Positions 3,314 to 9,028 of a DNA stretch of 24,529 nucleotides are shown here, in pieces. Source of the stretch: a virus. The stretch is taken from positions 1 through 24,529 of the IMG/VR virus record IMGVR_UViG_3300017781_000127. One strand, 5' to 3'. The position numbers and the translations under genes were made by a program. Numbering within the stretch: the stretch's first letter is position 1; every line of letters starts with the position of its first letter. The notes beneath the pieces were generated by a model that did no database searches, was not told where the DNA came from, and saw only the letters and a list, made by a program, of their open reading frames with translations.

Positions 3314-3342
3314 GCCAGCAGGAAACTGCTGGCATTTTTTTT
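3313..3342 (+). terminator. Rho-independent terminator after the small coiled-coil gene
   Basis: A perfect 9-bp stem TGCCAGCAG / CTGCTGGCA closes a GAAA tetraloop and is followed directly by eight T residues. This is a textbook intrinsic terminator on the + strand and separates the fibre/coiled-coil genes from the tail sheath gene. Confidence 0.92.
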
Positions 3343-3373: not shown

Positions 3374-5524
3374 ATGGCCGAACAAATAGTATCTCCGGGA
3401 GTATTTCAAAGAGAAACCGATCAATCATTCATAACACCTGCCCCAGTAGAAGTAGGTGCAGCAATTGTTGGCCCAACAGTAAAAGGACCCATCGAACGTC
3501 CTACTGTTGTGACTTCCTTCGCTGACTATAAACAAAAATTCGGGACAACTTTTATTTCTGCTTCCGAAAATTTAGAATTTTTTACTTCTATCGCTGTGCA
3601 AAAATATTTTGCTAACGGGGGTAATAGTATGTTAGTTACAAGAGTAGCTTCTGGTTCTGATAGTGCGTGGAGTAACGCAACTAGTACTGATATTAAATCA
3701 AGTGTAGCTGCTTCTGATTCTGCTAAAGCTAAAGGTAAATTGTTATTTACTCCTACCTTCTTTACAGATGAAGGTGATGAACTTCAAGTTACTGTAGGTA
3801 ATACTGAATTTAGATTTATTGCCTCTGATCCTACTGCTGTTCCTGCTGATAATTCACCTGTATTCTTTGTGGGTACAGGTTCTGATGCTGATACATCTAT
3901 AGATAAATTAGTAGCTAAAATAGGACAAGCAAATGCTTTAGGAGCAGGAATTGAAGCTAATGATGGAGGTACTAGTTTACTTATTACAGCCTCAGCTGCT
4001 GGTACTTCTGGTAACGTAATTACTATTGAAACCGGTTCAGGTGGTTCTATTTCTACTGATACACTTACATTAGCAGGTGGTTTAGATGGTAGTGGTAATA
4101 AAGCATTTACCCTAAAAACTATAGGCGAAGGTAGCATATTTAATGGCAGTACAGGTGCCGCAGACGCTGGTGAATTATTTGATGATGGAGGATTAAAATC
4201 AGGTTCAAAAGACAACCTAAGGTGGGAAGTTAGTGGTGTAAATACAGCTACAGGTACATTTAATCTTTCTATTAGAAGAGGTGACGATAATGCTAAAAAT
4301 AAGGTAGTATTAGAAACATTTATAGGATGTAGTTTAGATCCAAAATCTGATAATTATATTTCTAGAATAGTAGGGGACCAATTTACATCTACTTATGATG
4401 CTGAAGGTCAAACATTCATTACAGTAGAAGGTGAATATCCAAATAAATCAAAATATGTTTACGTTCATAACGTTGACCTTCCAACTGCTGATTATTTACT
4501 ACCTGACGGTACTATAGGTACAGATAAAAATGGAGTAACTTACCAAAATAGCTTACCAGCTGCTACTAGTGGTTCTTTCCAAGGAGGTACTGGAACTAAC
4601 ATCCCAGTAGGATCATCATACAGTAAGGGATTATTAACTTTTAATAATATAGATTCAGAAAATAGCCAAGGATTAATAGCGGGTGATTATACTAAAGCCT
4701 TAAATATCCTTAAGAATGCTGATGAATATAGATTCGCTACTATTACTATCCCAGGAATGTATAGACAAAATTACTCAGCTGCAACTGCTACCGCTACAGA
4801 ATTATGCGAAGGAAGGGGAGATGTATTCTTTATAATGGATTTAGTTCCATATAATGCAGCTCTTACTACTGTAACTAGCCAAGCAGGAAGCGAAAATACA
4901 AACTTTGCGGGTACATATTGGCCTTGGGTTCAAGTTCCATCAGTTGAACTTAGCAGAAACGTTTGGGTGCCTGCTTCTACAGTAATGCAAGGGGTTTATG
5001 CCGCTAATGATAGAGTAGCAGCCCCATGGTTTGCACCTGCTGGTTTAAATAGAGGTGGATTACCTGTAGTAAGAACAGAATTTAAACTTAACCAAAAATT
5101 AAGAGATACATTATATGATAACAGAGTTAATCCAATTGCAACTTTCCCAAGAGTAGGTCCAGTTGCTTACGGTCAAAAAACACTTCAGAAAAAAGCAAGT
5201 GCTTTAGACCGTATTAACGTAAGAAGATTATTAATCTCTCTTAAAAACTTTATTGGAGATACTTCTAAAAACTTAGTATTCGAACAAAACACTACAGTTA
5301 CTAGAAATAGATTCTTAAATGCTGTAAACCCATTCTTAGAATCAGTCCAACAAAGACAAGGTTTATTCGCGTTTAGAGTTGTAATGGATGAAACAAATAA
5401 TACAGCTGAAGCTATTGATAGAAACCAATTAGTAGGTCAGATATTTATCCAACCAACTAAAACAGCCGAATTTATAATTTTAGATTACACAATCCAACCA
5501 ACAGGTGCAACATTTAGCGACTAA
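3374..5524 (+). CDS. 18: Contractile tail sheath protein (T4 gp18-like)
   Basis: The 716-residue protein polymerises around the tail tube and contracts on infection. The N-terminus SPGVFQRETDQS, then VGAAIVGPTVKGP and a SFADYKQKFG box, with AVQKYFANGGNSMLVTRV after it, is the classic opening of phage sheath proteins: a handle that links neighbouring subunits and the start of the conserved core. A middle section (about residues 130-290), with AASAAGTSGNVITIE-like wording, is an inserted surface domain as seen in marine T4-like sheaths. The C-terminal part (about 540-716), with RNRFLNAVNPFLESVQQRQGLFAF and IQPTKTAEFIILDYTIQPTG, is the conserved sheath core. T4 gp18 is 659 aa, so length fits. 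It starts its own unit after a terminator and is followed by the tube gene, the standard gp18-gp19 order. Confidence 0.95.
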   Translation: MAEQIVSPGVFQRETDQSFITPAPVEVGAAIVGPTVKGPIERPTVVTSFADYKQKFGTTFISASENLEFFTSIAVQKYFANGGNSMLVTRVASGSDSAWSNATSTDIKSSVAASDSAKAKGKLLFTPTFFTDEGDELQVTVGNTEFRFIASDPTAVPADNSPVFFVGTGSDADTSIDKLVAKIGQANALGAGIEANDGGTSLLITASAAGTSGNVITIETGSGGSISTDTLTLAGGLDGSGNKAFTLKTIGEGSIFNGSTGAADAGELFDDGGLKSGSKDNLRWEVSGVNTATGTFNLSIRRGDDNAKNKVVLETFIGCSLDPKSDNYISRIVGDQFTSTYDAEGQTFITVEGEYPNKSKYVYVHNVDLPTADYLLPDGTIGTDKNGVTYQNSLPAATSGSFQGGTGTNIPVGSSYSKGLLTFNNIDSENSQGLIAGDYTKALNILKNADEYRFATITIPGMYRQNYSAATATATELCEGRGDVFFIMDLVPYNAALTTVTSQAGSENTNFAGTYWPWVQVPSVELSRNVWVPASTVMQGVYAANDRVAAPWFAPAGLNRGGLPVVRTEFKLNQKLRDTLYDNRVNPIATFPRVGPVAYGQKTLQKKASALDRINVRRLLISLKNFIGDTSKNLVFEQNTTVTRNRFLNAVNPFLESVQQRQGLFAFRVVMDETNNTAEAIDRNQLVGQIFIQPTKTAEFIILDYTIQPTGATFSD

Positions 5525-5564: not shown

Positions 5565-6050
5565 ATGGCGATATTAAGTTCAAATGATATGTTCTATACA
5601 GCTTACGAACCTAAGCTGCAAAATAGATTTATATTTTATATAGACGGTATTCCTGCTTATTTAATTAAATCAGCAGATAAACCAAAATACACTGCTGAAG
5701 AAGTAGTTCTCGATCACATTAACGTGAAAAGAAAAGTCAAGGGTAAGTCTGATTGGTCTCCTATTAGCTGTACACTATATGATCCTGTAACTCCTTCAGG
5801 AGCACAAGCAGTGATGGAATGGGTTCGTTTACACCACGAATCAGTAACAGGTAGAGATGGTTACTCTGATTTTTATAAAAAAGACATCAGATTTAATACC
5901 TTAGGACCAGTTGGTGATGTTGTTGAAGAATGGATTTGTAAAGGAGCATATGTTACTAATGCTGAGTTTGGATCAGGTGATTGGACTTCATCTACACCAA
6001 TGGAAATCAGCTTAACTATTGCCATGGATTATGCGATTTTGAACTACTAA
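5565..6050 (+). CDS. 19: Tail tube protein (T4 gp19-like)
   Basis: At 161 residues it is almost the same length as T4 gp19 (163 aa). Typical features are an N-terminal NDMFYTAYEPKLQNRFIFYI, where the subunit begins its beta-barrel, then IPAYLIKSADKPKY, a central VKRKVKGKSDWSPISCTLYDP, and a C-terminal WICKGAYVTNAEFGSGDW followed by ISLTIAMDYAIL. These are the conserved blocks of the gp19 family, whose hexameric rings stack to form the inner tube through which DNA and the tape measure pass. It follows the sheath gene by 40 bases, with its own TATTTATA leader, and is followed by a strong terminator, so it can be made in large amounts as a single-gene message. The call is secure. Confidence 0.95.
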   Translation: MAILSSNDMFYTAYEPKLQNRFIFYIDGIPAYLIKSADKPKYTAEEVVLDHINVKRKVKGKSDWSPISCTLYDPVTPSGAQAVMEWVRLHHESVTGRDGYSDFYKKDIRFNTLGPVGDVVEEWICKGAYVTNAEFGSGDWTSSTPMEISLTIAMDYAILNY

Positions 6051-6135: not shown

Positions 6136-6630
6136 ATGGCAGAAAATAAACCAATGTTCCCTACTGAAGAGGTAACATTACCCTCAAAAGGCTTAATTTA
6201 CCCCCAAGACAACCCTTTAGCTAAAGGTGTACTTGAAATGAAGTACATGACTGCTAAAGAAGAAGATATCTTAACCAACGAAAGTTACATTAAAAATGGC
6301 ACTGTAATCGATAAATTATTACAGGCCCTTATAGTAACACCGATTGACTATAACGATTTAATTGTAGGCGATAAAAACGCAATTATGATTGCAGCACGTG
6401 TATTAGGATATGGTAAAGACTATACATTTGAATTAGATGGTGAAGAACACACAGTAGACCTTACAGAAATTAACGATAAGTTAATGAAAGAAGAACACCT
6501 GTTTGAAAAAGGTAAAAATGAATTTGAATTTACCCTTCCTACCATTAAAAAAACTATTACATTTAAAATTTTAACCCACGCTGACGAGAAAAAGATAGAT
6601 TCTGAAATTAAAGGTCTTAAAAAAAATTAA
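6136..6630 (+). CDS. 26: gp26-like baseplate hub/tail assembly protein, N-terminal part (frame 1)
   Basis: The 164-residue open frame begins MAENKPMFPTEEVTLPSKG and has LEMKYMTAKEEDIL and GTVIDKLLQALIV, which I recognise as the start of the T4 gp26-type family (called baseplate hub subunit in T4-like phages). It ends at TAA directly after an A8 run (6619-6626). Homologs known to me are longer (T4 gp26 208 aa), and the missing part is intact in the next frame from 6629 to 6883. The product is therefore either a short form made alongside a frameshifted long form, or one gene split by an error in the A run. Position between tail tube and tape measure matches tail assembly chaperones of other long-tailed phages, so a chaperone role for the tape measure is inferred. 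There is no Shine-Dalgarno at the ATG. Confidence 0.85.
   Translation: MAENKPMFPTEEVTLPSKGLIYPQDNPLAKGVLEMKYMTAKEEDILTNESYIKNGTVIDKLLQALIVTPIDYNDLIVGDKNAIMIAARVLGYGKDYTFELDGEEHTVDLTEINDKLMKEEHLFEKGKNEFEFTLPTIKKTITFKILTHADEKKIDSEIKGLKKN
6619..6626 (+). other. A8 run at the frame 1 to frame 2 crossing (possible slippery site)
   Basis: The sequence CTT AAA AAA AAT TAA ends frame 1. Read one base later (+1, equal to -2), the A run leads to ATT AAT AAA AAT AAT TCC, which continues the gp26-like protein. Eight identical bases allow tRNA or polymerase slippage, and are also a common site of sequencing indels. Confidence 0.55.
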
Positions 6631-6883
6631 TAAAAATAATTCCTCAGAATACACAACTCGTTTAAAACATACTATTCTATCTGTTGAAGGCGATTACGAA
6701 CGTAAAACAGTTAGACAATTTGTAGAAAACAGCTTATTAGCAAGAGATGCAAGAGCATTAAGGGAATATATCAAAGAAATACAGCCTGATGTAGACTTAA
6801 CTTATGATCTTGAAAATGTAGCTGGAGACGTGAAAGGCGTTAGGATCCCAATTGGGATCACGTTTTTTTGGCCTGACTCCTGA
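6629..6883 (+). CDS. 26: gp26-like protein, C-terminal part in frame 2 (reached by frameshift)
   Basis: Frame 2 is open for 84 codons and reads SSEYTTRLKHTILSVEGD, then a helical VRQFVENSLLARDARALREY and a final VRIPIGITFFWPDS before TGA at 6881-6883. These are the C-terminal blocks I expect of gp26-like proteins of T4-like phages. The segment has no ATG in frame; the only GTG is near the end (6830), so it cannot be started on its own in any useful way. Joined to the frame 1 part across the A8 run it makes a protein of roughly 245 residues, close to homolog length. It covers what would otherwise be a gene-free gap between 6630 and 6852. Programmed frameshift and assembly error both remain possible. 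Confidence 0.75.
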   Translation, partial: NKNNSSEYTTRLKHTILSVEGDYERKTVRQFVENSLLARDARALREYIKEIQPDVDLTYDLENVAGDVKGVRIPIGITFFWPDS

Positions 6884-7118
6884 GTATAAATTTACTGTAT
6901 ACAATGAAGTACATGACCTAGTTTACTGGGGCAAGGGGGGATTTCTATATTCTGAAGTATATAATATGCCTATACACATTAGAAGGTATCATATTAGGAA
7001 AATAAATGAACATCATGAACAACAAAATGAAGAACATGAGAAAGCTATGAGGCAATCTGCCCAAGTAGCTAATAGTACACCCAAAACCCCTAATATACCA
7101 AAAAACTTAAGGCGTTAA
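6852..7118 (+). CDS. gp51-like small tail assembly protein (frame 3)
   Basis: Frame 3 is open from 6834 to TAA at 7116-7118; the first usable start is TTG at 6852, and the first ATG (6966) would delete half of the protein. The product (88 aa from the TTG) has TVYNEVHDLVYWGKGGF, SEVYNMPIHIRRYHIRKI and then a charged helix (about residues 50-70) and a basic Pro-rich end. The YxMPIxLRRxY box is typical of the short gene that follows gene 26 in T4-like phages and of second-frame parts of tail assembly chaperones; this is from memory. It overlaps the end of the frame 2 segment by 50 bases of open frame, and a T7 run (6863-6869) lies in the overlap. So it may be read by its own TTG start, by coupling, or by a second frameshift. 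The gp51 name is tentative. Confidence 0.65.
   Translation: MGSRFFGLTPEYKFTVYNEVHDLVYWGKGGFLYSEVYNMPIHIRRYHIRKINEHHEQQNEEHEKAMRQSAQVANSTPKTPNIPKNLRR
6863..6869 (+). other. T7 run at the frame 2 to frame 3 overlap (possible slippery site)
   Basis: ACG TTT TTT TGG ends the frame 2 protein (TFFWPDS); read one base later it is CGT TTT TTT GGC CTG, which leads into the gp51-like frame. The shift needed has the same direction as at the A8 run. Confidence 0.4.
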
Positions 7119-7147: not shown

Positions 7148-9028
7148 ATGGCTAAAAAAGACGAACTAAATAATATGAACGAAACAGCCGCTGAATTAAA
7201 AAAGCTGTTTAAAGAGTTAGGTGGTTTAGTCAATGAATTAAATTCTCAATTAGCCGATTCCGCTGACCTTACAGGTAAGGTAGCAGAAAATACTAGAAAA
7301 ACCACTAAAAATAAAAAAGATGCTGGTTCCTTAAGTAAGGAATTTATGGATAGTGAAAAAAATCGTGAAAACCTTCAAAAGAGGGTTTTAAACATGGATT
7401 TAGACCAGCTTAAGTTTTTACGAGAATCACTAAAGACTGGTAAAGGGTTAAATAGGGAAAAATTAAAAGAATTAGGGCTAGACGCGAATATAGGTAAATT
7501 AGCAGGAGCAGCTGCTAAAACCAAAATGGAACATTTAGGGATATCTAGACAATTAATATTCCTAAAAGAAACAGAAATTAAATTACAAAAAACCGCTAAT
7601 AGGTTAGTTGATGGTTTAATTCAAGGGTTCCTAAAAGCAGATGAAGAAACTGCTAAAATGGGTAGAAACCTAAATTTATCTAGAGCAGAAGCAGCTTCAT
7701 TAAAAATGGAATTTGCTAAAGTTGCTGTAGCATCCGGAGATGTAGCTATTAATTCTACTAGATTAGCAGAAGCTAATGCTGATCTTAATTCTCAATTAGG
7801 GACTGCTGTTGTGTTTAGTGGTGAAATGTTAAAAACAACCTCTAAACTAACTAAATTAGTTGGTTTATCTGCAGAAGCTGCTGGTAGTTTAGCGTTTCAA
7901 GCTCAACGTTCTGGTCAATCTGTAAGAGAAGTAGAAGAAAACGCTTTAGCAGCATCATATGAATTACAACAAGGAGCAGGAGTTGCTCTTAACTTAAAAG
8001 ATGTATTAGAAGCTTCTGGTAAAGTTTCAGGTCAATTAAGAGCTCAATTAGGGGCAAATCCTGAAGAGATAGCCAAAGCAGTTACAAAAGCTAAATTATT
8101 AGGTGCAGAATTAGAAGATTTAGCAGCAGCAGGTAAACAATTACTTGATTTTGAATCAAGTATTGAATCAGAACTAGAAGCCGAATTATTAACGGGTAAA
8201 CAACTCAACCTTGAAAGAGCAAGAGCCGCAGCATTAGCAGGTGATCAAGCAACCTTAGCTGACGAATTGGCTAAAAATATGGGTTCATTTAGTGACTTTA
8301 CTAAAATGAATACCTTACAGCAAGAGGCCTTAGCTAAATCGATGGGTATGAGTTCTGATCAATTATCTGACATGCTCTTTAAACAAGAAACTATGGGTAT
8401 GAACGCCCAACAGTTAAGAGCCCAAGGTAAGGATGAATTAGCAGATAAGTTAGAACAAGTAAGTGCCCAAGAAAAAATGAATCTTTTAGCCGAAAAGTTC
8501 CAGGGTATTATGGGTGATTTAGCAACAGCATTTACTCCCCTTCTTGATACAGTTGCTAATGTAGCTGCTTATTTAGGTTCAATGCCAGGAGTTGTAGGAG
8601 CTATAGTAGCCGCTATGGGAGCCTTATTAGTAATGCAAAAATTATTAGCAATTAGAACTATAATAACGTCTACAGCTAAATGGTTTGGTGAAAGTGCTAA
8701 ATTTGGACCTGGTGGTATTGCTATAGCATTAGCAGGTATAGCAGCTATGGGTGCTGCTGTAGGAGCCGCTAAAGCAACAAACATGGCACAGGGTGGTATA
8801 GTAAAACCTAAAGCAGGAGGTACAATAGCACGTATCGGTGAGGCAGGCCAACCAGAAGCAGTAATTCCATTAAATAAAGCAAGGCAAATGGGATTTGGCG
8901 GCGGTGGAGGAGCACCACAACCTATAATAATTAATAACACATTTGATGCATTCGCCGCTTCAAATGGCAATGGTAGAAAAGGACTTGGGGGAGCTCAAGA
9001 AATGCAGGCAAGTCCTACATTTGCTTAA
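7148..9028 (+). CDS. Tape measure protein (T4 gp29 position)
   Basis: The 626-residue protein sets tail length and occupies the tube lumen. The N-terminal 110 residues are highly charged and helical (MNETAAELKKLFKELGGLV, NKKDAGSLSKEF). The middle is Ala/Leu/Glu-rich helix, with LTKLVGLSAEAAG, DVLEASGKVSGQLRAQLG and MNTLQQEALAKSMGMS, wording common in tape measures of marine phages. Hydrophobic, membrane-like stretches lie at about 477-506 and 520-550. The C-terminal end has GGTIARIGEAGQPEAVIPL (about 557-575), a box typical of tape measure proteins, then a Gly-rich linker and PIIINNTF. T4 gp29 has 590 residues, and its gene follows the tube/chaperone block in the same way. At 1.5 angstrom per residue of helix the tail would be around 90-95 nm; that is an estimate. 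Confidence 0.88.
   Translation: MAKKDELNNMNETAAELKKLFKELGGLVNELNSQLADSADLTGKVAENTRKTTKNKKDAGSLSKEFMDSEKNRENLQKRVLNMDLDQLKFLRESLKTGKGLNREKLKELGLDANIGKLAGAAAKTKMEHLGISRQLIFLKETEIKLQKTANRLVDGLIQGFLKADEETAKMGRNLNLSRAEAASLKMEFAKVAVASGDVAINSTRLAEANADLNSQLGTAVVFSGEMLKTTSKLTKLVGLSAEAAGSLAFQAQRSGQSVREVEENALAASYELQQGAGVALNLKDVLEASGKVSGQLRAQLGANPEEIAKAVTKAKLLGAELEDLAAAGKQLLDFESSIESELEAELLTGKQLNLERARAAALAGDQATLADELAKNMGSFSDFTKMNTLQQEALAKSMGMSSDQLSDMLFKQETMGMNAQQLRAQGKDELADKLEQVSAQEKMNLLAEKFQGIMGDLATAFTPLLDTVANVAAYLGSMPGVVGAIVAAMGALLVMQKLLAIRTIITSTAKWFGESAKFGPGGIAIALAGIAAMGAAVGAAKATNMAQGGIVKPKAGGTIARIGEAGQPEAVIPLNKARQMGFGGGGGAPQPIIINNTFDAFAASNGNGRKGLGGAQEMQASPTFA

Follow-up and report, generated by a model that had tools for sequence, protein, structure and literature searches.

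A gp26-like gene in a phage tail module

The window, by which we mean the whole 24.5 kb stretch of DNA analysed here (24,529 nucleotides), is a viral contig fragment with a tail module encoded on the + strand. The module includes a tail sheath gene (3374–5524; phrog_23, E 1.9e-69; 49% to Flavobacterium phage immuto), a tail tube gene (5565–6050; phrog_4542, E 2.4e-25; 55% to the immuto tail tube), a gp26-like gene starting at 6136, and a tape measure gene (7148–9028; 30% identity to the immuto tape measure, E 2.9e-18). The gp26-like gene is thereby located between tail tube and tape measure, as frameshifted tail assembly chaperones of the G/GT type are. An earlier reading, made from the sequence alone, had given it this position, and the phrog_4542 match and the immuto comparisons of tube and tape measure bear it out.

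The phrog_150 profile matches the window protein and that of its nearest relative, L094 (E 1.2e-9), and T4 gp26 and T4 gp51 match it as well. Profile comparison with the single T4 gp26 and gp51 sequences returned nothing, whereas the phrog_150 profile did match. PF12322 gave no direct match with the window protein and is matched by the relatives SP-15 (1.5e-28), LIS04 and LR756508. An AlphaFold model of the N-terminal chaperone domain (TAC-N) of L094, with a pLDDT of 90, shares its fold with annotated family members in BFVD, namely the SP-15 baseplate hub subunit (TM 0.82) and T4-like baseplate hub assembly proteins. A PDB fold search with the same model found nothing significant, the HK97 tail assembly chaperone 2ob9 appearing only at E 6.4. 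Profile and predicted fold place the gene in the T4 gp26/gp51 family (phrog_150) of tail assembly chaperones (TACs). The gp26-like identity proposed from sequence alone stands, and so does the statement that this chaperone family produces two forms via frameshifting.

An extra base in the A8 run

The gene is split between two frames. Frame 1, carrying the 5′ two thirds of TAC-N (6136–6630), runs from the ATG at 6136 to a TAA at 6628–6630, a total of 164 codons, and stops directly 3′ of a run of eight A residues (6619–6626). Frame 2 is open from just past a TAG near 6600 to a TGA at 6881–6883, has no ATG, and carries the 3′ third of TAC-N (6632–6883), its product being NKNNSSEYTTRLKHTILSVEG...VRIPIGITFFWPDS in translation of the window. 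Since this product is 94–98% identical to the uninterrupted relatives L094–L099, frame 2 does not represent a chance open frame. Joining the two frames needs a shift of +1 or −2. In all of these respects (the split at A8, the C-terminal blocks in an ATG-less next frame, and the shift required) the coordinates and translation agree with the sequence-only reading. Three A8/T8 runs are observed in the window against 11.7 expected, the other two, at 3335 and 6093, both being intergenic.

The same reading proposed a programmed shift at A8, and here the relatives speak against it. A tblastn scan of viral contigs with the frame-1 protein gave at least 598 matches, of which 80 were kept; the frame passes the A-run site in 78 of them, the exceptions being one interrupted locus (L075) and one whose contig stretch ends (L080). 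Using the frame-2 protein as query brought in closer relatives; with both scans combined there are 136 distinct loci, and the frame is open across the position in 135 of them. The sole interrupted locus, again L075, has its own separate indel at the same homopolymer (around 2150–2190 of that contig). That the run is hit in another contig as well suggests a hot spot for indels, be it in assemblies or in genomes. An exact-match search around the A run, in which the gap could vary in length, matched no further contig.

L094, whose protein is 98% identical to that of the window in the frame-2 part and whose DNA is 87% identical across 5.3 kb, has seven A residues. Its A-run sequence is CTT AAA AAA ATC and that of L001 is CTT AAA AAA ATG, both within one unbroken frame, and an uninterrupted frame across a similar A run is exactly what the sequence-only reading had named as evidence against its own proposal. 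In the 5.3 kb comparison with L094, no coding indel lacks a balancing neighbour except the extra A at 6619, and against L001 over 6.4 kb this A is again the only uncompensated one. Because 135 of 136 relatives are intact, L094 has A7, and no other coding indel is unbalanced, the A8 split is private to the window sequence, its run being one base above that of every close relative.

On these comparisons A8 is best read as a one-base insertion, arising either from sequencing or assembly error or from a private, recent loss-of-frame mutation. A sequencing indel had been held up as the main rival of programmed shifting at A8; the insertion itself is upheld, as either an error or a private mutation. 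That it is a real mutation, in a defective phage genome or a minority variant, is somewhat unlikely. Homopolymer slippage also occurs during replication, and the assembly seems otherwise clean since no other unbalanced coding indel lies nearby; against this, such a mutation would cost the phage a presumably essential tail gene, so that a population consensus should seldom show the variant.

It is highly improbable that A8 is truly shifted in this phage alone, as a programmed or tolerated event, be it through slippage of the ribosome (+1 or −2) or of RNA polymerase; the gene would then need two shifts for its long form. In favour, the deposited sequence requires a shift, and the strong constraint on the downstream part (6 substitutions in about 235 bases versus L094) implies that the gene was still functional very recently. 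Against it, the split is common to no relative, L094 included, L075 has an indel of its own in this run, and no obvious gain would come from placing the TAC-N end behind a shift.

A conserved site and a third coding frame at the T7 run

Besides the unsplit relatives, the sequence-only reading overlooked a second frame change, at a run of seven T residues, which leads into a third coding frame extending to 7118. The T7 run (6863–6869) lies about 240 bases 3′ of A8 in the context TTT TTT TGG CCT GAC (6863–6877). In the TAC-N frame, this stretch encodes the C-terminus ITFFWPDS, followed by the TGA at 6881–6883; in the +1 frame it begins FFGLTPEYKFTVYNEVHDLVYW... and opens the TAC-C domain (6870–7118), which lacks an ATG of its own and is 48% identical to immuto over 42 aa.

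The site is conserved throughout the group. YTT followed by T is found in all 135 intact distinct relatives without a single loss, as well as in cultured Flavobacterium and Microcystis phages. TTT TTT TGG CCT GAC is exact in 123 of the 132 loci with the Trp codon, the remaining ones retaining YTT then T, and three more loci read TTT TTT TTC CCT GAC. Among the Trp-codon loci, every complete +1 ORF (126/126) has 68 or more codons beyond the site. The two Phe codons of the site are TTT in 260 of 262 instances versus 1016 of 1183 (86%) for the other Phe codons of the gene, a difference partly expected from two-frame coding and AT-rich usage, and drawn from relatives that are not independent of one another. 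The overlap thus contains a conserved slippery sequence of the kind known from G/GT-type chaperones, here T7 with YTT T variants.

The downstream ORF is itself maintained. Relative to L094, its substitutions are distributed 14:2:1 over codon positions 3, 1 and 2 (14 of 17 at the third position), and the third-position excess recurs against seven other relatives. The third frame up to 7118 is conserved, coding, and under purifying selection. As in the G/GT type, this conserved ORF overlaps the upstream gene in another frame and has no consistent start: across 77 loci, the +1 frame ahead of the conserved domain is free of ATG, GTG and TTG in 25, and ATG is present in only 19.

A −1 shift at T7 (XXXYYYZ) was our first suspicion and was rejected, as frame arithmetic on the 77 loci placed the conserved downstream frame at +1. 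By the same arithmetic, this frame is equivalent to −2. A −2 shift, as in phage Mu, would reach it equally, and TTT TTT T permits −2 re-pairing in most loci; yet in the loci reading TTT CTT TGG (two contigs and immuto) or TTC TTT TGG (two contigs) the −2 re-pairing is broken while the +1 re-pairing is kept, which makes a −2 mechanism a rather poor candidate.

It is more doubtful still that the 6870–7118 ORF is a gene in its own right, initiated independently and not reached through a frameshift. A TTG does occur at 6852 of the window in the third frame, and the annotation of Microcystis phage Mel-JY01 shows two overlapping genes. However, start codons are missing in many loci, as counted above, the conserved part starts right at the shift site, and the homology to the SP-15 TAC-NC protein is unbroken over the TAC-N/TAC-C junction, with hhalign giving E 1.4e-27 for the fusion and 3e-6 for TAC-C alone when SP-15 itself was left out of the relatives' alignment. 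The TTG lies just 5′ of the shift site (6852–6863), and a low-level internal start there is conceivable for this one phage.

Accessory signals were sought on both sides of T7. Downstream RNA structure showed no conserved signal (mean z −0.75 versus −0.02 to −0.66 in controls). A Shine-Dalgarno-like element upstream was considered and discarded, as the G-rich columns at −12 to −15 fall within IPIG codons and are not universal.

Proposed mechanism and known systems

We consider it very probable that the split at A8 comes from one inserted base and has no programmed role, and that a programmed +1 shift downstream, at T7, gives the long form of the chaperone. The likely site of recoding, which was the core of the earlier claim, is therefore relocated from A8 to 6863–6869. 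In this scheme, the 6136–6883 gene would yield the short form, TAC-N, which is about 248 aa in intact relatives. A minority of ribosomes would slip +1 at TTT TTT TGG (6863–6871), the P-site tRNA-Phe re-pairing from UUU at 6866–6868 to the overlapping UUU at 6867–6869, with GGC (6870–6872) as the next codon. The shifted ribosomes would then read GGC CTG ACT and onward to 7118, producing a TAC-NC long form of about 326 aa in L094. If the analogy to lambda gpG/gpGT holds, the N part may bind the tape measure and the C part may recruit tail tube subunits.

This interpretation removes a false recoding claim that depended on one homopolymer base, and it brings out a well-conserved, predicted +1 recoding site missed by the examined annotations in a very common environmental phage group. 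The T7 recoding site in the window gene is apparently unannotated, and the fused chaperone is unannotated in NC_055915 (immuto), PP395634, NC_031245 and OQ999172. In immuto, the "hypothetical protein" gp38 (L082 3851–3961, equal to NC_055915 150651–150761) corresponds to no more than the final part of the TAC-C ORF in the +1 frame (3656–3961).

The predicted direction of shifting differs among gp26-like chaperone genes. The +1 arrangement is present in the cultured phages immuto, Mel-JY01, SP-15, LIS04 and GXN1; Bacillus, Listeria and Streptococcus phages share it with the window group. A −1 arrangement with TTTTTTC is found in LR756511 and in Agrobacterium phage Atu_ph07 (L089 and L090). This variation within one family offers a natural comparison set for the interconversion of +1 and −1 recoding sites.

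Immuto is a cultured counterpart of the window phage. Its gp39 shares the synteny and a TAC-N that is 59–61% identical, and its shift site, TTT CTT TGG CCT GAC, is of the same +1 type; unlike the window, it has no interruption at the A-run position. Two contigs assigned to Winogradskyella and Flavobacteriales MAGs (L174 and L176) also carry TAC-N homologues, which points to flavobacterial hosts for the window phage group.

At the level of the site, a comparison can be made with Escherichia coli prfB (RF2), where a +1 frameshift occurs at CUU UGA. In both, a P-site YUU followed by U permits +1 re-pairing, and the CUU U of prfB is also present at the T7-equivalent site of immuto and of two contigs. 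The window site differs from prfB in having no A-site stop codon and no established match in Shine-Dalgarno spacing.

Tail chaperone genes frameshift by −1, −2 or +1, depending on the phage (PMC5009743). In lambda, the gpG/gpGT gene lies between tail tube and tape measure and gives a short form and a minor, frameshift-extended form through a programmed −1 shift (PMC5009743). The window gene occupies the same position with a predicted short and extended form; it differs in its predicted +1 direction and its contractile-tail, T4-like context.

T4 itself is organised differently from the window, its genes 26 and 51 being separate and on opposite strands, and PMC10274946 describes separate short and fused genes in some T4-like phages. 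The sequence-only reading held that a genuine shift would be new for T4-like phages, which is too strong: PMC12846349 attributes to Vladimirov, Gautam and Davidson (2022, Virology 566:9-15) the TAC genes that carry polyT shift sites in T4-like phages. These genes belong to the same family as the window gene (phrog_150) and likewise have a TAC-N with a polyT shift site, which PMC12846349 describes as −1, in contrast to the predicted +1 of the window group. Since TAC frameshifting, T4-like phages included, has already been published, the T7 shift would be another case of a known type, and perhaps a directional variant of it. More tentatively, a large and mostly uncultured T4-like clade, Flavobacteria-linked where the host is known, may make its long chaperone via +1 shifting at YUU-U rather than via the −1 described for T4-like TAC genes, the direction having switched within a single gene family, from which immuto, Mel-JY01, SP-15, LIS04 and GXN1 represent the +1 side and Atu_ph07 and LR756511 the −1 side.
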